Assembly (NCBI RefSeq): GCF_002998435.1
Contig: NZ_CP027231.1
Location: 2,893,001-2,957,000 of the forward strand
Length of the DNA: 64,000 nt
Source: Bacteroides zoogleoformans
GTDB taxonomy: Bacteria; Bacteroidota; Bacteroidia; Bacteroidales; Bacteroidaceae
Reading direction: 5' to 3'
Shown: piece after piece, positions 34,945 through 48,154 of the stretch
Layout of the letters: each line of letters begins with the position of its first letter
How positions within the stretch are numbered: position 1 is the stretch's first letter
The notes under the pieces: model-generated
The model's database searches: none
What the model was told of the DNA's origin: nothing
The model's input: the letters and a program-made list of their open reading frames with translations, nothing else
Position numbers and translations under genes: made by a program

Positions 34945-35092
34945 CGCTTTTTTTTGAGATCTCCAATAGGTCTGCGTTGTTTTTTGCTTTTATTTTTCCG
35001 GAAAGCGCTTTCCCTACAGCTTACATCGCATCGGGTGTGTATTTGCTCCTTATCTGCCTCTTGTCATCTTCGTGTATCCTCCGTATCTATGT

Positions 35093-35188
35093 ATGCGGAG
35101 GTTATACGGAGATGATACGGAGATGATACGGAGTTGATACGGAGGATATACGGAGGATATACGGAGGTGATACGGAGGATATGCGGAT
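35093..35188. repeat. Nine-unit 11-bp tandem repeat
   Basis: Units of the form ATACGGAGGAT or ATACGGAGATG start at 35093, 35104, 35115, 35126, 35137, 35148, 35159, 35170 and 35181, always 11 bp apart. An inverted copy (ATCCTCCGTATC) lies just to the left at 35076. The array occupies the divergent interval between the SRP RNA promoter and the rimP promoter. Confidence 0.92.
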
Positions 35189-37116: not shown

Positions 37117-40116
37117 ATGACGATAAGGTTAAACAAAGTAACAAGAGATTTGAATGTAGGAATTACGACAGCCGTCGAGTTTCTGCAGAAGAAGGGATTT
37201 ACCGTTGAGGCAAATCCCAATACGAAAATTACCGATGAGCAGTTTGAACTGCTCAAGAAGGAGTTCAGTACGGATAAGGACCTTAAAATAAAATCGGAAC
37301 GTTTCAGTCAGGAGCGTCAAAGCAAGGATCGCAACAAGGGATCCGTATCTATTGATGGCTATGAGGAAAATACGCAGGAGAAAGCCAAACCGGAGGAGAT
37401 AAAAACCGTTGTTCCCGAAGATGCGCGCCCGAAGTTTAAGCCTGTCGGCAAGATAGATCTGGACAAACCGGGCCAGTGGCTTGCTACTGCTTCGGAAAAG
37501 GAGGAAGCCGAAAAGGTGATAGAGGAGAAGAAGGCGGAAGAGCCTGTATCGGTAGTTGTGGAAGCTCCCCAGACTGTTTCGGAAGAACATAAGGAAACGA
37601 AGCCTGAGCCGGAACTTGTATCTCAGCCCGAAGCAAATACTGAACCCGAAGTACAAACGGCAACGGTTGTAGAGAAAGAGCCGCTGATTGCTACACGGGT
37701 GGAAACCGAATCTGAAGAGGAAGAAAGAGTAGAAACTCTTTCGGTGGTGGGCACTGAACAGCCGGAAGAAAAAGAAGAACCGGAAGAAGAGGAAATCTTT
37801 AAGATACACCAGCCCGAATTTGTTTCGAAGATAAATGTAATCGGACAAATAGACTTGGCCGCTCTGAACCAGTCTACACGCCCCAAGAAGAAGTCGAAAG
37901 AAGAGAAGCGCAAAGAACGGGAGGAAAAGGAAAAGATTCGCCAGGACCAGAAGAAACTGATGAAAGAAGCCATCATCAAGGAAATTCGCCGCGAGGACAG
38001 CAAACTCAATGATTCGGGCACCGACTCGAACGGGAAGAAAAAGCGTGTCCGCATCAATAAAGAGAAGGTGGACATCAGCAATGCCTCCAATTTTCAGCGT
38101 GGCGGTAACGACCGCTCCAAGAATGCCGGTGGCGCTTCCGGTGGAGGCCAACAGGCCGGAGGTGGCCGCGGGCGGAATAAAGACCGCTTCAAGAAGCCCC
38201 TTGCAAAACAAGAAGTGAGCGAGGAAGACGTAGCCAAGCAAGTAAAGGAAACCTTGGCTCGCCTTACCTCCAAAGGCAAGAACAAGGGCGCCAAGTATCG
38301 CAAGGAAAAGCGCGACATGCTGTCCAACCGCATGCAAGAGCTCGAGGATATGGAGATGGCGGAAAGCAAGGTGCTGAAACTTACCGAATTCGTGACGGCC
38401 AACGAGCTGGCCAACATGATGGACATTTCCGTCACCCAAGTCATTGCCACTTGCATGAGCATCGGCATGATGGTGTCCATCAACCAGCGTCTGGATGCCG
38501 AGACCATCAATCTGGTGGCCGATGAATTCGGCTTTAAGACCGAATATGTCAGTGCCGAAGTTGCCCAGGCCATTGTGGAAGAAGAGGACGAGGAACAGGA
38601 CTTGAAGCCTCGCGCTCCGATTGTCACCGTGATGGGACACGTAGACCACGGCAAGACTTCGCTGCTCGACTACATACGTAAGGCCAATGTCATTGCCGGT
38701 GAGGCGGGCGGCATTACCCAGCACATCGGCGCTTATCACGTTTCACTGGAAGACGGGCGTAAGATTACCTTCCTCGACACACCGGGACACGAAGCGTTTA
38801 CCGCCATGCGTGCCCGCGGGGCCAAGGTGACGGATATCGCCATCATCATTGTGGCCGCGGATGACAACGTGATGCCTCAGACGAAGGAAGCCATCAACCA
38901 CGCCACGGCCGCCGGTGTCCCCATCGTGTTTGCCATCAACAAGATTGATAAGCCCACGGCCAATCCCGACAAGATTAAGGAGGAGCTGGCGGGCATGAAC
39001 TTCCTGGTGGAAGAGTGGGGCGGTAAATACCAGTCGCAGGACATCTCCGCCAAGAAAGGGCTGGGCGTGGCCGAGCTGATGGAAAAAGTATTGCTGGAGG
39101 CCGAACTGCTCGAACTCAAGGCCAACCCCGATCGCCGCGCCACCGGCTCCATCATCGAATCTTCGTTGGACAAGGGGCGCGGTTATGTGGCCACGGTATT
39201 GGTCTCTAACGGCACGCTGAAGATGGGCGATATTGTGTTGGCCGGCACCAGCTACGGCAAGGTGAAGGCCATGTTCAACGAGCGCAACCAGCGCATCAAG
39301 CAGGCAGGCCCCTCAGAACCGGCCTTGATATTGGGACTGAACGGGGCGCCCGCCGCCGGCGATACGTTCCACGTGATAGAAACCGAACAAGAAGCCCGCG
39401 AGATTGCCAACAAACGCGAACAGCTGCAACGCGAACAAGGCTTGCGCACGCAGAAGATGCTGACGCTCGACGAAGTGGGGCGCCGCCTGGCATTGGGCGA
39501 CTTCCACGAACTGAACGTCATTGTCAAAGGCGATGTGGACGGTTCGGTAGAAGCGTTGAGCGACTCGTTGATAAAACTCTCCACCGAGCAGGTACAGGTC
39601 AACGTCATCCATAAGGGAGTGGGACAGATTTCCGAGTCGGACGTATCGTTGGCCGCCGCTTCGGATGCCATCATCGTAGGCTTCCAGGTGCGTCCCTCGG
39701 GTGCAGCCGCCAAACTGGCCGAACAGGAAGGGGTGGACATCCGCAAGTACTCCGTCATCTACGACGCCATCGAGGAAGTGAAGTCCGCCATGGAGGGCAT
39801 GCTGGCGCCTACCTTGAAAGAGCAGGTCACGGCCACCATCGAAGTCCGCGAAGTGTTCAACATCACAAAGGTGGGCCTCGTGGCCGGCGCCATGGTGAAG
39901 AGCGGAAAGGTGAAACGCACGGACAAGGCCCGGCTGATTCGCGACGGCATCGTCATCTTCACCGGTTCCATCAACGCGTTGAAGCGTTTCAAGGACGACG
40001 TGAAGGAAGTGGGCACAAACTTTGAATGCGGCATCAGCCTGACCGGTTGCAACGACATCAAGGTGGACGACGTCATCGAGTCTTACGAAGAAGTGGAAGT
40101 GAAACAGACGCTATAA
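37117..40116 (+). CDS. infB: Translation initiation factor IF-2
   Basis: 999 residues. A small N-terminal IF2N domain ([20 protein letters not shown]), then about 300 residues of low-complexity Glu/Lys/Pro sequence, a Gly/Arg-rich stretch ([18 protein letters not shown]) and a second IF2N domain near residue 420. G domain: [14 protein letters not shown] (near 506), [15 protein letters not shown], and NKID. Domains II-IV follow. It places fMet-tRNA on the 30S subunit. It begins 61 bases after nusA and is followed by a strong terminator. Confidence 0.96.
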
Positions 40117-40131
40117 TTACTGAAGAGAACG

Positions 40132-40183
40132 ATGTGCCAACTGCTCTGCGGAATGTTTGCGCGGCCGGTTGGCACATTTTTTT
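40132..40183 (+). terminator. Terminator of rimP-nusA-infB
   Basis: ATGTGCCAAC pairs with GTTGGCACAT, with further pairing inside (CGGCC region), followed by TTTTTTTG. Confidence 0.85.
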
Positions 40184-40197
40184 GTATGTCGCCAAGT

Positions 40198-40420
40198 CTC
40201 TCTGTAAAGACCGTGTACAAGCCTCTACAGAGGCACCGCCCGCCTCTCTATAGAGACGTCGTCAATCTCTCTATAGAGACGTTACCCATCTCTCTATAGA
40301 GACGTTACCCATCTCTCTATAGAGACGTTAAGCATCTCTCTATAGAGACGTCATCAGTCTCTCTATAGAGACATTTCCGGCCCCTCCATAGAGGCGCCAC
40401 AGGCCCCTCTGCGGTGCCGG
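40198..40420. repeat. Ten-unit array of 23-bp repeats with TCTCTATAGAGA palindromes
   Basis: The perfect palindrome TCTCTATAGAGA occurs at 40245, 40268, 40291, 40314, 40337 and 40360, exactly 23 bp apart. Degenerate copies continue the same phase on both sides (CCTCTACAGAGG at 40222; CCCTCCATAGAGG near 40382; CCCCTCTGCGG near 40405). Linkers vary (CGTTACCCA, CGTTAAGCA, CGTCATCAG). It lies between the infB terminator and the cvpA-suf operon. Confidence 0.95.
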
Positions 40421-40455
40421 CATACATCGCTCGTTCATACCTTTATTATAATATA

Positions 40456-40503
40456 GTATAGGGTTGAATAAACGGTATAGGATTGAATAAACAGTATATA
40501 AAG
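40456..40503 (+). repeat. 19-bp direct repeats in the cvpA leader
   Basis: GTATAGGGTTGAATAAACG at 40456 is followed by GTATAGGATTGAATAAACA at 40475 and a third partial copy, GTATATAAAG, at 40494, directly before the cvpA ATG at 40504. They may provide start-site spacing or regulatory sites. Confidence 0.75.
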
Positions 40504-41034
40504 ATGGCAATGATAGACATTCTGATAATCGCGGCCTTCGGAGCCGGTGCCGTCATCGGCTTCATGAAAGGATTTATCAAGCAGTTGGCCTCTATCTTGG
40601 GGTTGATTGTGGGCTTGTTGGCCGCAAAGGCTTTGTACGCCACGCTGGCCGAGAAACTCTGCCCCGCGGTGACAGACTCCATGACATGGGCGCAGATACT
40701 GGCTTTCGTCCTCATCTGGATAGCGGTGCCGCTGGCTTTTACATTGGCGGCTTCCGTACTGACCAAGGCGCTGGAAGCCATGTCGCTGGGTTGGCTGAAC
40801 CGCTTGCTGGGAGGCGGATTGGGAGCACTCAAATACCTGCTGCTCGTCAGCCTGCTGATAGGAATGATAGAGTTTGTCGATGAAGAAGACCGGTTGATAA
40901 GTAAAACAAAAAAGCGGGAATCGGTGTTATATTATCCGATGAAGTCATTCGCCGGCATCTTCTTTCCCGCGGCGAAGCGTACGGCCGAACAATATATATT
41001 GAACAATCATGCAACAGAAGAAATCCTACCCTAA
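40504..41034 (+). CDS. cvpA: CvpA family membrane protein
   Basis: 176 residues from the ATG at 40504. Four membrane helices ([78 protein letters not shown]) with the CvpA pattern [10 protein letters not shown] and [14 protein letters not shown]. CvpA proteins affect colicin V production and envelope stress; the precise role is unknown. Its end overlaps the sufB start by 26 bases, tying it to the suf operon. Confidence 0.88.
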
Positions 41035-42532
41035 GCATAACAACCTGCCGCCCGCGCACGACGCCGGGATGGACGGCGAGACGAAGCCTTCCTCCAACGA
41101 GTACGTCCGGAAGATTGCGGAAGAAAAATACAAGTACGGCTTCACCACCGACGTGCACACGGACATTATCGAGTGCGGACTGAACGAAGAGGTGGTGCGG
41201 CTCATCTCCCGAAAGAAGCGTGAACCGGAGTGGCTGCTGAAGTTCCGCCTGGAAGCCTATCGGCACTGGCTGACGTTGGAAATGCCCGCGTGGGCCCATC
41301 TGCGCATTCCCCAGATAGACTACCAGTCCATCTCTTACTATGCCGACCCCACGAAGAAGAAGGAAGGGCCGAAAAGCATGGACGAGGTGGACCCGGAGTT
41401 GGTGAAAACCTTCAATAAACTGGGCATTCCTCTGGAAGAGCAGATGGCGTTGAGCGGCATGGCGGTGGACGCCGTGATGGACTCGGTGTCCGTAAAGACC
41501 ACCTTCAAGGAGACTTTGATGGAGAAAGGCATCATCTTCTGCTCTTTCAGCGAGGCCGTGCGCGAGCATCCCGACTTGGTGCAGAAGTATCTGGGCTCTG
41601 TAGTGCCCTATCGCGACAACTTCTTTGCCGCACTCAACTCTGCCGTGTTCTCCGACGGCTCTTTCGTCTACATCCCCAAGGGAGTGCGCTGCCCGATGGA
41701 ACTGTCTACCTACTTCCGCATCAACGCCCGCAATACGGGCCAGTTTGAAAGGACGCTGATTGTGGCCGACGACGACTCGTATGTGTCGTACCTCGAAGGC
41801 TGCACGGCCCCGATGCGCGACGAAAACCAGCTGCATGCCGCCATTGTGGAGATTGTGGTGCACCACCGTGCGGAGGTGAAGTACAGCACGGTGCAAAACT
41901 GGTATCCGGGTGACGCCGAGGGCAAAGGCGGCGTTTACAACTTCGTGACCAAGCGCGGCCATTGCAAGGGAGTGGACAGCAAACTGTCGTGGACACAGGT
42001 GGAAACGGGCTCTGCCATTACTTGGAAATACCCCTCGTGCATCCTCTCGGGCGATAACTCCACCGCGGAGTTCTACAGCGTGGCGGTGACCAACAACTAT
42101 CAGCAGGCCGACACGGGAACCAAGATGATTCATCTGGGCAAGAACACCCGCAGCACCATCGTCAGCAAAGGCATCTCTGCCGGGAAGAGCGAGAACTCTT
42201 ACCGCGGACTGGTGCGTGTGGCCGCCAAGGCGGACAATGCCCGCAACTATAGCCAGTGCGACTCTTTGCTGCTGGGCGACAAATGCGGAGCGCATACTTT
42301 CCCCTACATGGACATCCACAACGAAACGGCCATTGTGGAGCATGAAGCCACGACCAGCAAAATCAGCGAAGACCAGATATTCTACTGCAATCAGCGAGGC
42401 ATTTCTACCGAAGATGCCGTGGGGCTGATTGTAAACGGCTATGCCAAGGAGGTGCTGAACAAACTTCCGATGGAGTTCGCCGTAGAGGCGCAGAAGCTGC
42501 TGACCATTTCGTTGGAGGGAAGCGTGGGATGA
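41009..42532 (+). CDS. sufB: Fe-S cluster assembly protein SufB
   Basis: 507 residues, longer than the roughly 480 of most SufB proteins because of an N-terminal polar extension ([20 protein letters not shown]). Conserved blocks: [60 protein letters not shown] and [20 protein letters not shown] with the final [12 protein letters not shown]. It is the scaffold on which, with SufC and SufD, iron-sulphur clusters are built. Translation probably couples to cvpA. Confidence 0.96.
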
Positions 42533-42595
42533 TTTATGGAATGTCAGACGAAAGACAGTAAACGAATAAACAGTCAATAAACAGTGAATATAGAA

Positions 42596-43351
42596 ATGTT
42601 AGAGATAAAAGACCTGTATGCCGGCATCCATGGCAAAGAGATATTGAAAGGCATCGACCTGACCATACGCAAAGGTGAAGTACATGCGCTCATGGGGCAG
42701 AACGGCGCCGGTAAAAGTACATTGAGCAACGTGCTGGTAGGACATCCGGCCTATGAGGTGACGCGTGGCTCGATTACCTTCAACGGGAAGGACCTGCTAG
42801 CCATGAATGCCGAAGACCGTGCGCATGAGGGCATTTTCCTTTCCTTCCAGTCACCGGTAGAGATACCGGGCGTTTCGATGGTGAACTTCATGCGTGCTGC
42901 CGTGAACGAGCAGCGCAAGTATCGTCATCTGCCGGCGTTGTCGGCCGGTGAGTTTCTGAAGTTGATGCGCGAGAAGCGTGCCATCGTGGAGTTGGATAAT
43001 AAGCTTGCCAACCGCAGCGTGAACGAAGGCTTTAGCGGAGGCGAGAAGAAGCGTAACGAGATCTTCCAGATGGCCATGCTGGAACCCACTTTCGCCATTC
43101 TGGACGAGACGGACTCCGGTCTGGACGTGGATGCCCTGCGCATCGTGGCGGACGGCTTTAACAAGCTGAAGACGGCGGAGACCGGTGCGATTGTCATTAC
43201 TCACTATCAACGCTTATTGGACTATATCAAACCCGATAAGGTACACGTTTTGCTTGGCGGCCGCATCGTCAAGAGCGGTGGCCCCGACTTGGCCAAGGAG
43301 ATTGAACAGCGGGGCTTCGACTGGATAAAAAAGGAAGCGGGAGATTTTTAG
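42596..43351 (+). CDS. sufC: Fe-S assembly ATPase SufC
   Basis: 251 residues from the ATG at 42596 (a GTG twelve bases upstream is less likely). ABC ATPase: Walker A GQNGAGKST, Q-loop SFQSPVEIPGV, signature FSGGEKKRNEI, Walker B FAILDETDSGLD, and the switch His in VITHYQRLL. It drives the SufBCD scaffold. The next gene in line is a GxxExxY protein, not sufD, so the usual sufB-C-D order is interrupted. Confidence 0.96.
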   Translation: MLEIKDLYAGIHGKEILKGIDLTIRKGEVHALMGQNGAGKSTLSNVLVGHPAYEVTRGSITFNGKDLLAMNAEDRAHEGIFLSFQSPVEIPGVSMVNFMRAAVNEQRKYRHLPALSAGEFLKLMREKRAIVELDNKLANRSVNEGFSGGEKKRNEIFQMAMLEPTFAILDETDSGLDVDALRIVADGFNKLKTAETGAIVITHYQRLLDYIKPDKVHVLLGGRIVKSGGPDLAKEIEQRGFDWIKKEAGDF

Positions 43352-43355
43352 AGAA

Positions 43356-43790
43356 TTAGGCGCGGATGACGCGGAATGACGCGGATTATGTTATATGAAG
43401 ATTTGACACATGATATATTGCAGGCATTTTACGAGGTGCATAAGGTCTTGGGATTTGGCTTTTTAGAACAGGTCTATCAGAATGCGCTTTATAAAGAACT
43501 CTCTCGTAGGGGGATGTGTGTGGAATGCCAAAAAGAAATCAAAGTATATTATAAAGGTGAATGTGTAGGAAGATATATAGCCGATATGGTTGTGAATAAC
43601 ACTGTAATACTTGAGTTGAAAGCTGTTCAGACGTTGCGACCGGAACATGAATGGCAACTGATAAACTATCTGAAAGCCACCACACTTGAAGTTGGTTTAT
43701 TGTTGAATTTCGGGCATAGTGCAGAGTTCAAACGCAAAGTTTTCACAAACAAATAAATAAATCTGCGAAATCCGCGTAATCCGCGCCTAA
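43356..43790. mobile_element. GxxExxY gene cassette bounded by inverted repeats, between sufC and sufD
   Basis: The left end TTAGGCGCGGATGACGCGGA (43356-43375) and the right end TCCGCGTAATCCGCGCCTAA (43771-43790) are inverted repeats of 20 bp with one mismatch; weaker pairing continues inward with further CGCGGAT units. The 435-bp unit contains only the GxxExxY gene. No target duplication is clear. Interpreting it as a mobile cassette is inference. Confidence 0.55.
43388..43756 (+). CDS. GxxExxY protein, PD-(D/E)XK nuclease-like
   Basis: 122 residues from the ATG at 43388; the ATG at 43376 lies inside the left repeat. The naming motif is visible as GFLEQVY (Gly24, Glu27, Tyr30). The nuclease-like core shows Asp66 in YIADMVV and ELKA with Glu76 and Lys78, the D...ExK signature, then WQLINYLKAT and VGLLLNFG. 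Family function unknown. It stands alone between inverted repeats inside the suf operon and is more AT-rich than its neighbours, as expected for an insertion. Confidence 0.88.
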   Translation: MLYEDLTHDILQAFYEVHKVLGFGFLEQVYQNALYKELSRRGMCVECQKEIKVYYKGECVGRYIADMVVNNTVILELKAVQTLRPEHEWQLINYLKATTLEVGLLLNFGHSAEFKRKVFTNK

Positions 43791-43803
43791 ATAAAGATAA
43801 GTT

Positions 43804-45147
43804 ATGAAACCAGAACAGCAATATATAGACCTTTTCTCCCAAACGGAGGCAATGATATGCCACCACAGTGCCGAGGTGATGAATGCGCCCCGTGCGGCGG
43901 CTTTTGCCCATTTCGAGCGGCTGGGCTTTCCCACCCGTGAACAGGAGGAATACAAATATACGGATGTCAGCAAGTTCTTTGAACCGGACTACGGACTGAA
44001 CCTGAACCGGCTGGACATCCCCGTGAACCCTTACGAAGTGTTCAAATGCGACGTGCCCAACATGAGCACGGCCCTGTACTTCGTGGTGAACGATTCTTTC
44101 TACGGCAAGAGCTTGCCCAAGTCCCTACTGCCCGAAGGCGTTCTCTTCGGCAGCCTGAAAGAAATGGCTGAAAAGCATCCCGAACTGGTCAGGGCGCATT
44201 ACGGTAAGCTGGCCGATACGTCTGCCGACGGTGTGACGGCCTTCAACACGGCTTTTGCGCAAGACGGGGTACTGCTCTATGTGCCTAAAGGCGTGGTGGT
44301 GGAGAAGCCCATCCAGCTGGTCAACATTCTCCGTGGAGAGGTCAGCAGCCTGCTGAACCGGCGCATGCTGATTATCTTGGAAGAGGGTGCGCAAGCCCGG
44401 CTACTGGTGTGCGACCATGCCATGGACAATGTGAACTTCCTGGCCACGCAAGTGGTGGAAACCTTTGTCGGCGAGAATGCCTCTTTCGACTTTTACGAGC
44501 TGGAAGAAACACATACCGGCACAGTCCGCATCAGCAATATGTATGTGGAACAGAAAGCCCACAGCAACGTCTTACTCAACGGAATGACCCTGCACAACGG
44601 AACTACCCGCAACACCACGCAGGTGACGCTGGCAGGCGAAGGTGCCGACCTGAACCTTTGCGGGATGGTCATCGCCGACAAGAACCAACATGTGGACAAC
44701 CGTACCCGCATAGACCATGCCGTACCTCGCTGTACGAGCAACGAACTCTATAAGTATGTGCTCGACGAACAGGCTGTGGGAGTGTTTGCAGGCTTGGTGC
44801 TGGTGCGTCCGGATGCGCAGCACACCAACTCGAAGCAGACCAACCGGAACCTTTGCGCCACTCGTGAGGCGCACATGTACACCCAACCGCAGCTGGAAAT
44901 CTATGCGGACGACGTGACGTGCAGCCATGGCGCCACGGTGGGACAGCTCGATGACGCCGCCTTGTTCTACATGCGCCAGCGAGGCATTCCCCTGCGCGAG
45001 GCCCGCCTGCTGCTGATGTTCGCTTTCGTCAACGAGGTCATCGATACCATCCGTCTGGATGCTTTGAAAGACCGCCTGCATCTGCTGGTGGAGAAGCGTT
45101 TCCGTGGCGAACTGAACAAGTGCCGGGGATGCGCGATTTGTAACTAA
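43804..45147 (+). CDS. sufD: Fe-S cluster assembly protein SufD
   Basis: 447 residues. N-terminal helical part (ERLGFPTREQEEYKYTDVSK), then the long right-handed beta-helix core: VPKGVVVEKPIQLVNIL, VETFVGENASFDFYELEETH and the conserved C-terminal HTNSKQTNRNLCATREAHMY, DVTCSHGATVGQLDDAALFY and MRQRGIPLREARLLLMFAFV. Scaffold partner of SufB. It follows the cassette by 13 bases and uses the normal suf order afterwards. Confidence 0.95.
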   Translation: MKPEQQYIDLFSQTEAMICHHSAEVMNAPRAAAFAHFERLGFPTREQEEYKYTDVSKFFEPDYGLNLNRLDIPVNPYEVFKCDVPNMSTALYFVVNDSFYGKSLPKSLLPEGVLFGSLKEMAEKHPELVRAHYGKLADTSADGVTAFNTAFAQDGVLLYVPKGVVVEKPIQLVNILRGEVSSLLNRRMLIILEEGAQARLLVCDHAMDNVNFLATQVVETFVGENASFDFYELEETHTGTVRISNMYVEQKAHSNVLLNGMTLHNGTTRNTTQVTLAGEGADLNLCGMVIADKNQHVDNRTRIDHAVPRCTSNELYKYVLDEQAVGVFAGLVLVRPDAQHTNSKQTNRNLCATREAHMYTQPQLEIYADDVTCSHGATVGQLDDAALFYMRQRGIPLREARLLLMFAFVNEVIDTIRLDALKDRLHLLVEKRFRGELNKCRGCAICN

Positions 45148-45154
45148 GAAATTC

Positions 45155-45229
45155 GGAAGGCGCGGATGAGGCGGATTTCACGGAGTTTATTCATCACAAC
45201 CGTGTGCAGCCCGTTCCTCCGTGCCTTGA
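45155..45229. repeat. Degenerate palindrome related to the GxxExxY cassette ends
   Basis: AAGGCGCGGA at 45158 continues as TGAGGCGGATTTCACGGAG; its partner TCCGTGCCTT at 45218 pairs with the first ten bases, with one mismatch. The left half resembles the cassette end. It lies in the sufD-sufS gap. Confidence 0.5.
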
Positions 45230-45245
45230 TTCAATCAGAAAGTCT

Positions 45246-46460
45246 ATGTATGATGTTCAGAAGATAAGGGCCGACTTCCCGATACTCTCTCGTGAAGTCT
45301 ACGACCATCCGCTGGTCTACCTTGACAACGGAGCCACCACGCAGAAGCCCCGTATGGTGGTGGATGCCATTGCCGACGAGTATTACTCCGTCAACGCCAA
45401 CGTGCACCGAGGCGTTCACTTCCTTTCGCAGCAGGCCACGGAGCTGCACGAGGCGTCGCGCCGGACGGTGCGTGCATTCATCAATGCCCGCAGCGCCAAC
45501 GAGATTGTCTTTACGCGCGGCACCACGGAGAGCGTCAACCTGCTTGCCTCTTGTTTCGGCGAGGCGTTCATGCGCGAGGGCGATGAGGTGATTGTCTCCG
45601 TGATGGAGCACCACAGCAACATCGTCCCCTGGCAACTGCTGGCTGCCAGGCGGGGAATCGTCCTCAAGGTTGTTCCCATGAACGACAAAGGCGAACTGCT
45701 GCAGGACGAGTACAGGCGTTTGTTCTCCGAACGCACCAAGATAGTCAGCCTGGCACATGTATCGAATGTGTTGGGCACGGTCAATCCCGTCAAAGAGATG
45801 ATTGCCTTTGCCCACCGGCAGGGCGTGCCTGTGCTGATAGACGGCGCACAGTCCGTCCCCCACATGCCCGTGGATGTGCAAGAGCTGGATGCCGACTTCT
45901 TTGTCTTCTCCGGACATAAGGTCTACGGCCCCACCGGCGTAGGCGTGCTTTACGGCAAAGAGGAGTGGCTGGACAGGCTGCCTCCCTATCAGGGCGGCGG
46001 CGAAATGATACAGAGCGTCTCGTTCGAGAAGACCACGTTCAACGAACTGCCTTTCAAGTTCGAGGCCGGTACGCCGGACTACATCGGAACCACGGGACTG
46101 GCCCGTGCGCTGGATTATGTCTCGCTCATCGGCATGGACCGGATTGCCGCCTACGAGCACCGGCTTACCTGCTACGGCCTGCAACGGCTGAAAGAAATTC
46201 CCGGCATGCGCCTCTTCGGAGAAGCGGAACAGAGGGGCAGTGTCATCTCGTTCTTGGTGGGCGACATCCATCCTTTCGACATGGGCACGCTGCTCGACCG
46301 CCTCGGCATTGCCGTGCGCACCGGCCACCACTGTGCCCAGCCACTGATGCAACGCCTCGGCATCGAAGGCACCGTGCGTGCCTCGTTCGGACTGTACAAC
46401 ACCCGCGAAGAAATCGATGCGCTGGTAGCCGGCATCGAGCGTGTCAGCCGGATGTTTTGA
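45246..46460 (+). CDS. sufS: Cysteine desulfurase SufS
   Basis: 404 residues from the ATG at 45246; the longer frame begins in the palindrome region. PLP-dependent fold: the Schiff-base Lys is in FSGHKVYGPTGVG, the persulfide Cys in VRTGHHCAQPLMQR, and HHSNIVPWQLLAARRG is a class signature. Group II desulfurase (the SufS loop is short). It supplies sulphur from cysteine to SufBCD. A separate sufE/sufU gene is not in the window. Confidence 0.95.
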   Translation: MYDVQKIRADFPILSREVYDHPLVYLDNGATTQKPRMVVDAIADEYYSVNANVHRGVHFLSQQATELHEASRRTVRAFINARSANEIVFTRGTTESVNLLASCFGEAFMREGDEVIVSVMEHHSNIVPWQLLAARRGIVLKVVPMNDKGELLQDEYRRLFSERTKIVSLAHVSNVLGTVNPVKEMIAFAHRQGVPVLIDGAQSVPHMPVDVQELDADFFVFSGHKVYGPTGVGVLYGKEEWLDRLPPYQGGGEMIQSVSFEKTTFNELPFKFEAGTPDYIGTTGLARALDYVSLIGMDRIAAYEHRLTCYGLQRLKEIPGMRLFGEAEQRGSVISFLVGDIHPFDMGTLLDRLGIAVRTGHHCAQPLMQRLGIEGTVRASFGLYNTREEIDALVAGIERVSRMF

Positions 46461-46504
46461 ATCTTCTTGCCTCGAGCTGACGACTTCTCATCCTCCGATT
46501 TTTC

Positions 46505-46571
46505 AGACGCAGATGACGCGGATGACGCAGATTTTTTATTTTTATCTGCGTCATCCGCGTCATCCGCGTCT
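46505..46571. repeat. Gene-free palindrome with CGCGGATGACG units
   Basis: Two 28-nt arms, 46505-46532 and 46544-46571, are inverted repeats with a single mismatch around an 11-base AT loop (TTTTTATTTTT). Each arm carries GATGACGCGGATGACGCAGA-type sequence, closely related to the ends of the GxxExxY cassette. It could be transcribed as a long hairpin and end the suf operon. Confidence 0.85.
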
Positions 46572-46608
46572 AAAGAATTAAAGGCACATGTCCCATTCTT
46601 TTTCCCCA

Positions 46609-46703
46609 TTTGTCAGAGGCTTGTGTCTTTCGTGTAGAACACAAGCCTCTTACATGAAGAAGGCCAGTGTCTTTCGTGTAAAACACAAGTGTCTGACAAA
46701 TGC
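46609..46703. repeat. Phased 22-bp repeat with nested dyads
   Basis: GTGTCTTTCGTGTA occurs at 46623 and 46667 (44 bp, two periods), and GTGTCTGACA at 46689, a further 22 bp. The middle unit at 46645 has diverged. AGGCTTGTGT/ACACAAGCCT and an outer pair, CATTTGTCAGA/TCTGACAAATG, are perfect dyads. It lies between sufS and the convergent GH-like gene. Confidence 0.75.
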
Positions 46704-46765
46704 CCTATAATCAGTTGATAATTAGGACTTCGGACTGTGAGTGAGAAGATGCTTTCCGGCGGTTG

Positions 46766-47866
46766 TCAATACGTCTTCCGGATGGCCTTTGCCAAAGCGT
46801 CCCAATGCTCGTCCGTCATGCTCTGCGGGGTGAACAGGCACACACCGGTGGCTCCGGCCCTCATCGAACCTGCCACAGCCTCTTCTATCTCCGAGGGCAG
46901 CAAACCCCAATGTTCCGGGTCGGCCAGATTGGCCTTGTTCCGCCAGTCGCGGCAGATGAAGAGTCCGCTGTAGACGGGTGTTTGCTTGGAGGCCACGCTT
47001 TTCACTTCTTCGGCCGTCACCTTGCCCACCCACGCTGCGGGTTCCAGATAGAAGTCATTGTAGTTCATCGGGAAGTAAGCGTCCACGTTCCATTTATCCC
47101 ATTCCTGGCGCACCATCCACACGGCATAACTCTTCGGGCCGGGGAAGACGTCCGCGCTCACCTTCTTGCCTTTGGCGTGGATGGCGTCCACCAGCTCGTT
47201 CACCAGTCCGGTGATGGCGTCGCAGCGGAATTGCGCCCACTCCTGGCACGTCGAAGGGTCTTCCACCTGCCGTATGTTGATGCCGCTTGCCCGTTTGAAG
47301 GCGGCCACGCAACTGTCGCAGTAGCAGTAGTCGGCGTTCGGATATTCTTCGTCCATCGTCAGGCCGTACTTTTTCCACAGTCCGCGCGCCAGGATGACGT
47401 CCGCGTAGCGGATATAGTCCAGTTGGATGTAGTCCACTTCGTCGATGGAAGCGATGCGTTCGAACTGCTCCTTGAGGAAACGTCGCGCTTGCGGCTTCAG
47501 CGGGTCCAGCGTCTTGTAGTAAGGCACATACGCCGGCTTGTCGTAGGCCGACTCACCCAAGCGGTTCACTGTATAGAAAGTTGAATCGAGGGCCGGTTGC
47601 AGCATGGTGGGAATCCATGCGTGATACTCCAGCCCCAACTCCTTGGCTATGCGAGCGGCGGTGGCCACCTTGGCCGAGTCGAAGTGAGCGTTGAAGCATA
47701 CGCCCGTCGTGCCGTGCGCTTTCCAACGCTCGAAGTCGCTTCGCAGACTGGTTTCCGTAGTGTGCTCGTCCCACGACTGCCATACGTACAGAGGGACTTT
47801 CACCGAGTCTTTCTCCCCGCATCCCGCAAGAAGAAAGAGCGTGAATAGGATAAATAGGTTTTTCAT
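46766..47866 (-). CDS. Putative glycoside hydrolase-like lipoprotein (GHL10-type)
   Basis: 366 residues, lipobox LLAGC at about residue 16. A (beta/alpha)8-type protein of the family-10-like group: VPLYVWQSWDEHTTETSLRS, GLEYHAWIPTM, YIQLDYIRYADVI (the LDYIRY block is typical), SADVFPG and DAYFPMNYN. Family members are thought to be glycosidases or related surface proteins; activity not shown. CYCDSCVAAF gives a Cys cluster. It stands alone, reading towards sufS. Confidence 0.7.
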   Translation of the reverse strand: MKNLFILFTLFLLAGCGEKDSVKVPLYVWQSWDEHTTETSLRSDFERWKAHGTTGVCFNAHFDSAKVATAARIAKELGLEYHAWIPTMLQPALDSTFYTVNRLGESAYDKPAYVPYYKTLDPLKPQARRFLKEQFERIASIDEVDYIQLDYIRYADVILARGLWKKYGLTMDEEYPNADYCYCDSCVAAFKRASGINIRQVEDPSTCQEWAQFRCDAITGLVNELVDAIHAKGKKVSADVFPGPKSYAVWMVRQEWDKWNVDAYFPMNYNDFYLEPAAWVGKVTAEEVKSVASKQTPVYSGLFICRDWRNKANLADPEHWGLLPSEIEEAVAGSMRAGATGVCLFTPQSMTDEHWDALAKAIRKTY

Positions 47867-48154
47867 GATAGTTGTTTTTATAGTTAGTTTAATTAATCTT
47901 GATAAAGGTCTTGTCCATCAGTTTGTCTATAGGCATTAAAACCTCTTTATGTGTAGAGGTGCACTTTGTTATGATGAAAGTTTTACTTATTTAGGCGCAT
48001 AAAGCTAATCTTTTTTGTGACAACAGCAAAATCCAGACAGGAAAAATTGTGTTTCAATGTCATAACCGATGATGGATGGCGTTTGTTGTATCTCAAAATG
48101 CTTACAGTTTAAAATCTAAAAGCAAAAAGTGAGGTCTTCTATGTGAAGTTTATA

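Follow-up and report, generated by a model that had tools for sequence, protein, structure and literature searches.

A 435-bp unit placed between sufC and sufD of Bacteroides zoogleoformans (43356-43790) carries one GxxExxY/PDDEXK_3 gene enclosed by inverted arms and is, on balance, probably a minimal selfish element, consisting of a small PD-(D/E)XK, RecB/Cas4-like nuclease and the palindromic arms that it putatively recognizes. Gene and arms form one unit. The same genomes also contain dispersed gene-free palindromes that have these arms, and individual sites occur empty, with the palindrome only, or with the gene. The best reading, we infer, is an element of two parts in the manner of RAYT/REP, its protein part being a RecB/Cas4-like nuclease and its putative activities being cleavage and copying.

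Results

Anatomy of the sufC-sufD Cassette

Here, the window refers to the whole stretch of DNA that was analyzed (64,000 nucleotides), which belongs to a 3.36-Mb genome assembled as one contig (G000). Features of the sufC-sufD region are given in Table 1. The outermost 20 nt of the two arms (43356-43375 and 43771-43790) are complementary at 19 of 20 positions and are separated by 395 nt. One inverted pair of at least 19/20 at a spacing of 300-700 was found in the window versus none in eight first-order Markov simulations. By eye, the arms extend to three units of ∼9 bp each (about 43356-43387 and 43760-43790). When the cassette was folded as RNA, the arms paired in three stretches to give a closing stem around the single ORF, with a minimum free energy of −130.9 kcal/mol (z −4.7) that was equaled by 0 of 100 shuffled sequences; the inverted ends are thus hairpin-forming in this fold.

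Table 1. Features of the cassette and its surroundings (positions in the window)
Feature	Position	Strand	Remarks
sufC, host operon gene, intact	42596..43351	+	ORF 42584-43351; junction compared in relatives
Left arm, three ∼9-bp units, CRCRGAT-like core	43356..43387	+	Outer 20 nt form the 19/20 inverted repeat
GxxExxY/PDDEXK_3 gene	43388..43756	+	122 aa from ATG 43388 (likely start)
Right arm, inverted, three units	43760..43790	-	
sufD, host operon gene, intact	43804..45147	+	
Degenerate gene-free palindrome, same family	45153..45230	.	Between sufD and the next gene
Gene-free palindrome, same family, GACGCGGAT units	46498..46578	.	Strong hairpin

An earlier note had described the unit as one GxxExxY gene between 20-bp inverted repeats with a single mismatch, and both the arm comparison and the profile searches below bear this out. 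Its further statement, that the gene runs in the operon direction and leaves its neighbors intact, is likewise correct, all three genes being on the + strand and the reading frames of sufC (stop at 43349-43351) and sufD (ATG at 43804) being open and uninterrupted. The likely start codon, as judged from the sequence, is ATG 43388 rather than 43376, because the latter falls within the arm; the copy in genome G002 was compared in this assignment.

The GxxExxY Protein and Its Conserved Residues

The ORF of the cassette matched the TIGR04256 (GxxExxY) profile at 142.4 bits against a cut-off of 35 and the PF13366 (PDDEXK_3) profile at 144.1 bits against a cut-off of 22. In an alignment of 68 rows, with residues counted from 43376, Gly-28, Glu-31, Tyr-34, Asp-70, Glu-80, Gln-94, and Tyr-98 were invariant, and Lys-82 was nearly so. 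A D..ExK pattern followed by QxxxY is the motif of Cas4 and RecB-type nucleases, and we take Asp-70, Glu-80-x-Lys-82, and Gln-94-xxx-Tyr-98 to be its equivalent, the pattern being common to these nucleases (PF01930) and to the GxxExxY residues. The Cas_Cas4 profile (PF01930) was matched at E ≤ 5 by 10 of 27 family members (best E value, 2.2e-4); the window protein itself gave no match to it, and a PDB profile search returned a single insignificant match (4ic1, E 0.67). Cas4 has a four-cysteine Fe-S set; the window protein, by contrast, has three cysteines in a short chain of 122 aa. Together, the residues and the Cas4 matches of family members point to a RecB/Cas4-like nuclease, an activity predicted here from sequence.

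Purifying selection was indicated for two GxxExxY gene pairs, with dN/dS values of 0.05 and 0.11. The G002/G033 pair gave 0.53, a value resting on a dS of 0.014, and dS was saturated in five of the eight pairs, including every pair with the gene of the window.

Gene-free Palindromes with the Same Arms

The genome of the window has one GxxExxY gene. In this genome, GGCGCGGATNACGCGGA found 45 matches at up to two mismatches, including that of the cassette, and the reversed pattern found none. Inspection of 19 of these places revealed several gene-free hairpins, the others being single arms or chance-like, and runs of T stand behind some of the palindrome copies. Gene-free palindromes had been claimed close to the cassette, and two are present. 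The one at 46498-46578 has 35-nt arms that are 91% matched and a hairpin z-score of −13; in the degenerate one, which corresponds to the arm-pattern match at G000:C1:2938159, the left arm is clear and the right arm has decayed. An Rfam scan of 40000-48000 yielded hairpin matches only, all below gathering scores.

Further palindromes of other kinds lie in the window. An imperfect one of another family, with 42-nt arms (CATTTGTCAGAGGCTTGTGTCTTTCGTGTAG..., 74%), adjoins the GACGCGGAT palindrome at 46607-46702, an array of TCTCTATAGAGA palindromes separates two genes at 40223-40411, and inverted arms of ATACGGAGG-like units at 35041-35187 may form a further gene-free palindrome built from tandem units.

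Eleven gene-free copies were read in genome G001. Ten of them measured ∼85-90 bp, and the loop of the copies occurred in either orientation. Since these copies are near-constant in size and loop in both orientations, gene deletion is unlikely as the sole origin of gene-free copies. Of the CACGGAT palindromes read in this genome (loci L227-L237), many lie within a larger, ∼140-bp repeat, seemingly with outer inverted ends of its own.

Occurrence of Inverted Arms around GxxExxY Genes

Inverted arms were scored by local alignment of the upstream flank against the reverse complement of the downstream flank (IR score), with a threshold of ≥34; a swap null for the loci of relatives had a 95th percentile of 34 and a 99th percentile of 53. 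GxxExxY genes were present in 24 of 61 relatives searched. From 48 matches, 29 loci were taken (28 plus L050; the fragments L083 and L084 were left out, and L073 and L074 are nearly identical), and 23 of the 29 reached the threshold. The remaining six (L068, L069, L085, L071, L081, and L082) had no arms at this score. Among control ORFs from 20 stretches of 20 kb and the window, 8 of 360 scored ≥34 versus 19 of the 20 called GxxExxY or S23 targets (the L130 gene, which bears a stop, was not among the 20). The eight controls comprised two four-helix-bundle genes, five neighbors sharing the arm of the element, sufD among them, and uxuA, which sits between CACAGATT repeats.

A phyla-wide set consisted of 80 loci that were the best matches to six LGPGLLE-type sequences rather than a random sample, seven of them without full flanks. 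In this set, 47 of 73 loci scored ≥34 and 26 had no arms at that score; among control ORFs at a distance from the element, 7 of 325 scored ≥34 (Mann-Whitney p 3e-28). Four GxxExxY genes, one four-helix-bundle gene, and two nuo genes from a repeat-laden Geobacteraceae operon (L214) made up the seven controls; ORFs near the element were kept apart from the controls (10 of 137 at ≥34). Comparison with a swap null (47 of 80 above p95 and 28 above p99) was dropped in favor of the control ORFs because a core common to the LGPGLLE-subgroup arms inflates the result. Of the 17 phyla sampled, 11 had scores of ≥34; there were none at the two methanogen loci or at the one or two loci each of Ignavibacteriota, Cloacimonadota, Fidelibacterota, Omnitrophota, and Chlorobiota. 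Arrays of inward-facing cores occupied both flanks at 46 of the 73 loci versus 8 of the 325 control ORFs. Two or more CRCNRAK cores at a spacing of 8-10 bp were held by 45 of the 54 left arms scoring ≥30, and the best arm period was 8-10 in 19 of 22 arms from relatives and 48 of 52 from the phyla-wide set. The suggestion that cognate inverted flanks occur on other members of the family has therefore withstood this check, at 23 of 29 loci in relatives and 47 of 73 across phyla.

Arm Class, Protein Clade, and Repeat Abundance

Three classes of arm core were distinguished: CRCRGAT in the clade of the window protein, GAACA in a second clade, and CRCRRAG in the LGPGLLE group, which spans phyla. When these classes, which were read by eye, were placed on the protein tree, the 19 rows of the three classes required two changes (mean of 8.3 in shuffles, 0 of 300 as few). 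All 23 labeled rows, two of which score <34 (G048a and G056a), required five versus 12.2 in shuffles; four armless rows were unlabeled.

Repeat counts in the 61 genomes were compared by Fisher tests, which ignore phylogeny, at thresholds set after the counts had been seen: 6 of 8 genomes with GAT-armed genes were at or above a threshold of 10 versus 5 of 53 others (2e-4), 5 of 8 RAG-armed genomes were at or above theirs versus 1 of 53 (5e-5), and 4 of 4 ACA-armed genomes were at or above a threshold of 3 versus 3 of 57 (7e-5). Four of five non-cognate pairings tested were null (p 0.59-1), the pairing of ACA repeats with GAT genes being outside the five; GAT repeats also associated with ACA-armed genes (p 0.016). 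In each of five genomes with CGGAT-armed genes, CRCGGATNNCRCGGAT gave 17-300 matches. Exceptions ran both ways: repeats were present where no gene was found (G035, 97 matches; G021, 20 and 28; G016, 17; and G031, 12), and gene-bearing genomes had few or no pattern matches (G055 and G056, 0; G048, 8 with the RAG pattern) or fell under the GAT threshold (G025, 9; G049, 2). Among 12 genomes outside the order, most of which have arms spaced by 1 nt, CRCRRAGNCRCRRAG exceeded its reversed control by >1.4-fold in 10 (for example, 369 versus 52 and 42 versus 3) and stayed below that ratio in two (15 versus 14 and 29 versus 26). Arm class thus goes with protein clade, and cognate repeats track the gene.

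These data bear on the proposal that GxxExxY is a host or defense gene, flanked by chance by ordinary dispersed repeats. Although repeats are abundant in several genomes, also in some where no gene was found (G021 and G035), other ORFs are rarely so flanked (7/325 and 8/360, many of these being family members or arm-sharing neighbors), and the arm class tracks the protein clade. We therefore disfavor chance flanking as very improbable. A defense reading was also set aside, the PADLOC match being weak (E 0.012) and PHROG giving no match.

State of the sufC-sufD Junction in Relatives

SufD matches were obtained in 59 of 61 genomes, and the sufC-sufD junction was read in 30 of the 59. The gene was present at four of the 30 junctions, a gene-free palindrome at one, and an arm remnant at one. 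The four with a GxxExxY gene and inverted arms are those of G000, G005, G002, and G033, the last two being nearly identical. The junction of G022 has a gene-free palindrome carrying the TTAGGCGCGGAT arms of the window cassette; in G009, all that is present is AATCCGTGCCTA at the stop of sufC, which we took to be an arm remnant. Five junctions (G031, G018, G035, G007, and G028) had, as judged by eye, palindromes of a different, 7-bp type, and the others had short or unrelated gaps. The GxxExxY gene at the suf site of G005 belongs to the same seven-row protein clade as that of the window yet has different arms (GACGCAGATGACACGGAT). Empty sites at sufC-sufD had been anticipated; in agreement with that expectation, 26 of the 30 genomes examined here lack the gene at this junction, and the differing junction states therefore indicate that it is not fixed at the suf site. 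The SufD tree, in which 8 of 27 inner branches were starred, was too poorly resolved to place gain or loss at suf.

Other insertions were seen in or beside suf genes. In G033 (L293, G033:C72 58500-59200) and G016 (L291, G016:C11 63400-64400), sufD contains an in-frame (AGCTACG)n palindrome of period 7, which adds ∼20-30 residues and is absent from the relatives G002, G015, and G020. A recent, private insertion in G033 was considered, and this reading is weakened because the insert recurs in G016, in frame and at identical codons. At L140 (G060:C4 140000-159900), two four-helix-bundle genes adjoin suf: the first separates the SufB-like match from the SufD match, and the second follows SufD. The suf operon thus seems to be a repeated landing place.

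Differences between Closely Related Sites

At four gene-free sites for which the DNA retrieved from the two genomes overlapped, a palindrome was common to G002 and G033 with 97-99% identity. By contrast with these shared sites, two CGGAT palindromes of G002 were absent from G033 in the L280/L130 comparison (89-95% identity). Here, G033 has unrelated palindromes instead (GTAGGGGCG...CGCCCCTAC, together with GTTCCAGTGGCGGTGGAAC in repeated copies), as though palindromes were exchanged among intergenic slots. A gene-free palindrome of G033 has the same arm as the gene-bearing unit of that genome, and its 24-mer had 87 exact matches there. Between G001 and G012, the element was 92.6% identical versus 78.5-86.6% in the main neighboring blocks, the exception being one 119-bp off-diagonal block at 91.6%. 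The few sites compared showed no clean target-site duplication, but their flanks also differ. Given that other palindromes replace the element at differing sites, replacement or recombination may be the mode of movement.

An Unrelated Family with the Same Architecture

TIGR02436 (four-helix bundle, S23) was present in 35 of 61 relatives, with no match in the genome of the window. Of 92 TIGR02436 matches, 30 loci were scored; 20 had IR scores of ≥34, the same architecture as that of GxxExxY around an unrelated protein, and the best arm period was 7 in 18 of 22 scored arms. At one S23 site, G031 and G018 have S23 genes with different arms (those of G018 match each other weakly, with a score of 19), and G007 and G033 are empty. 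At a second, the gene is present in G033, a palindrome read as gene-free in G005, and neither in G016. The AATTGAC arm pattern was counted 21, 13, and 4 times in G006, G013, and G001, all with AATTGAC-armed S23 genes, and 2-4 times in five other genomes. The AGCTAC pattern was found eight times in G033, which has the cognate gene, and 11 times in G011, which has an S23 relic between AGCTAC arms; counts where no AGCTAC-armed S23 gene was seen were 13 (G016), 6 (G007), 3 (G002), and 2 (G015).

According to PMC4990558, the intervening sequence (IVS) of Coxiella 23S rRNA is a 428-nt element with one S23 ORF and a 28-bp terminal stem, cut by RNase III, and the function and origin of such sequences are termed unclear there. 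The cassette resembles this ∼430-nt, one-ORF element within a hairpin of inverted ends (PMC4990558). It differs in that S23 genes encode a four-helix bundle and mostly have arm units of 7 bp, and in that the IVS sits in rRNA and is excised by RNase III, whereas the cassette has a nuclease-family gene and ∼9-bp units and sits in a protein operon, not in 23S rRNA.

Discussion

The S23 parallel bears on how the element spreads. Since S23, a non-nuclease, has the same architecture, nuclease activity may not be what spreads the element, and the mechanism may instead be RNA-level or host-driven. Such an element, akin to the 23S rRNA IVS, would have an arm stem that insulates the ORF or allows excision by RNase III, with the protein binding the stem; spreading would be due to host recombination or a helper and not to DNA cleavage by GxxExxY. 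The closing stem around the ORF agrees with this, as do the S23 genes, not known as nucleases and built alike (20/30 loci, period 7 in 18/22 arms), and the hairpin-ended, RNase III-cut Coxiella element as given in PMC4990558. Orientation also agrees: at 57 loci with both neighbors within 600 bp, GxxExxY runs along with both in 35 and opposite to both in six. However, the loops of the 11 G001 copies face both ways, which use at the transcript level does not require, and PD-(D/E)XK residues are kept with two gene pairs under purifying selection, neither of which a pure RNA binder needs. We regard the RNA-level account as credible but unlikely.

Another possibility is that the palindromes are useful host hairpins, such as terminators or mRNA stabilizers, and that the nuclease has been domesticated to take care of these palindromes, trimming or policing them. 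The strong hairpin at 46498-46578, the T runs behind some copies, and the purifying selection in two pairs would fit such a role. But the gene is patchily present (24/61 relatives) and was gained or lost at one site, and at one S23 site the arm sequence differs between species. A selfish element accounts better for these observations, and a caretaker function seems improbable.

For the selfish element, the nuclease would bind the repeat core in an extruded hairpin or cruciform, or as single strand on the lagging strand, and would cut the bound palindrome; repair may then place copies of the palindrome, either alone or together with the gene, at new intergenic positions. Insertion between operon genes in the operon direction would give the element use of the host transcript, in which the closing stem may keep the cassette a separate module.

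The comparison with RAYT/REP systems made in the earlier note is apt in logic, given the inverted flanks, cognate repeats, and gene-free copies. As described in PMC2817692, a nuclease gene lies between two inverted palindromic repeats that have many gene-free copies, as for the cassette, and repeat copy number correlates with the cognate gene, as here with exceptions both ways. The enzymes differ: RAYT is related to IS200/IS605 transposases (PMC2817692), whereas the window protein gave only PDDEXK_3 above cut-off, with no HuH/Y1 transposase of the IS200/IS605 group, and belongs with PD-(D/E)XK. A REP is a short palindrome headed by GT(A/G)G, whereas each arm here has two or more repeat units of ∼8-10 bp; unlike in REP, the gene of the cassette occupies the loop of the palindrome itself. 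The gene-free copies also recall MITEs of DDE transposons, short inverted-repeat derivatives of a longer unit, but with PDDEXK_3 in place of a DDE transposase and no clear target-site duplication seen at the few sites compared, whose flanks differ as well.

We know of no such dispersed-palindrome role in the PD-(D/E)XK nuclease superfamily. A literature search that covered few subscription papers, and is thus weak evidence, gave passing mentions only and no account linking GxxExxY with repeats; none was present in the available parts of PMC8934634, PMC12085832, PMC4990558, and PMC2817692. What seems new here is that REP/RAYT logic is combined with an enzyme unrelated to RAYT and with arms of unusual design. 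That many relatives in other phyla are wrapped alike, with their arms scattered gene-free in several of the genomes, suggests a widespread, little-described small selfish element.

A broader proposal, for and against which we find about equal weight, is a pan-bacterial class of genes in a palindrome that encode unrelated small proteins (GxxExxY with ∼8-10-bp units and S23 with mostly 7-bp units), in which many dispersed palindromes would be gene-free derivatives and 23S rRNA IVSs the rRNA-dwelling branch of S23. GxxExxY is a candidate author for dispersed palindrome families, its arms having been seen in 11 phyla, and there is a link to the puzzle of rRNA intervening sequences; a single small protein and a short piece of DNA would suffice to test both questions. 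The arm sequence and the protein change together and would constitute a recognition code ready to decode.
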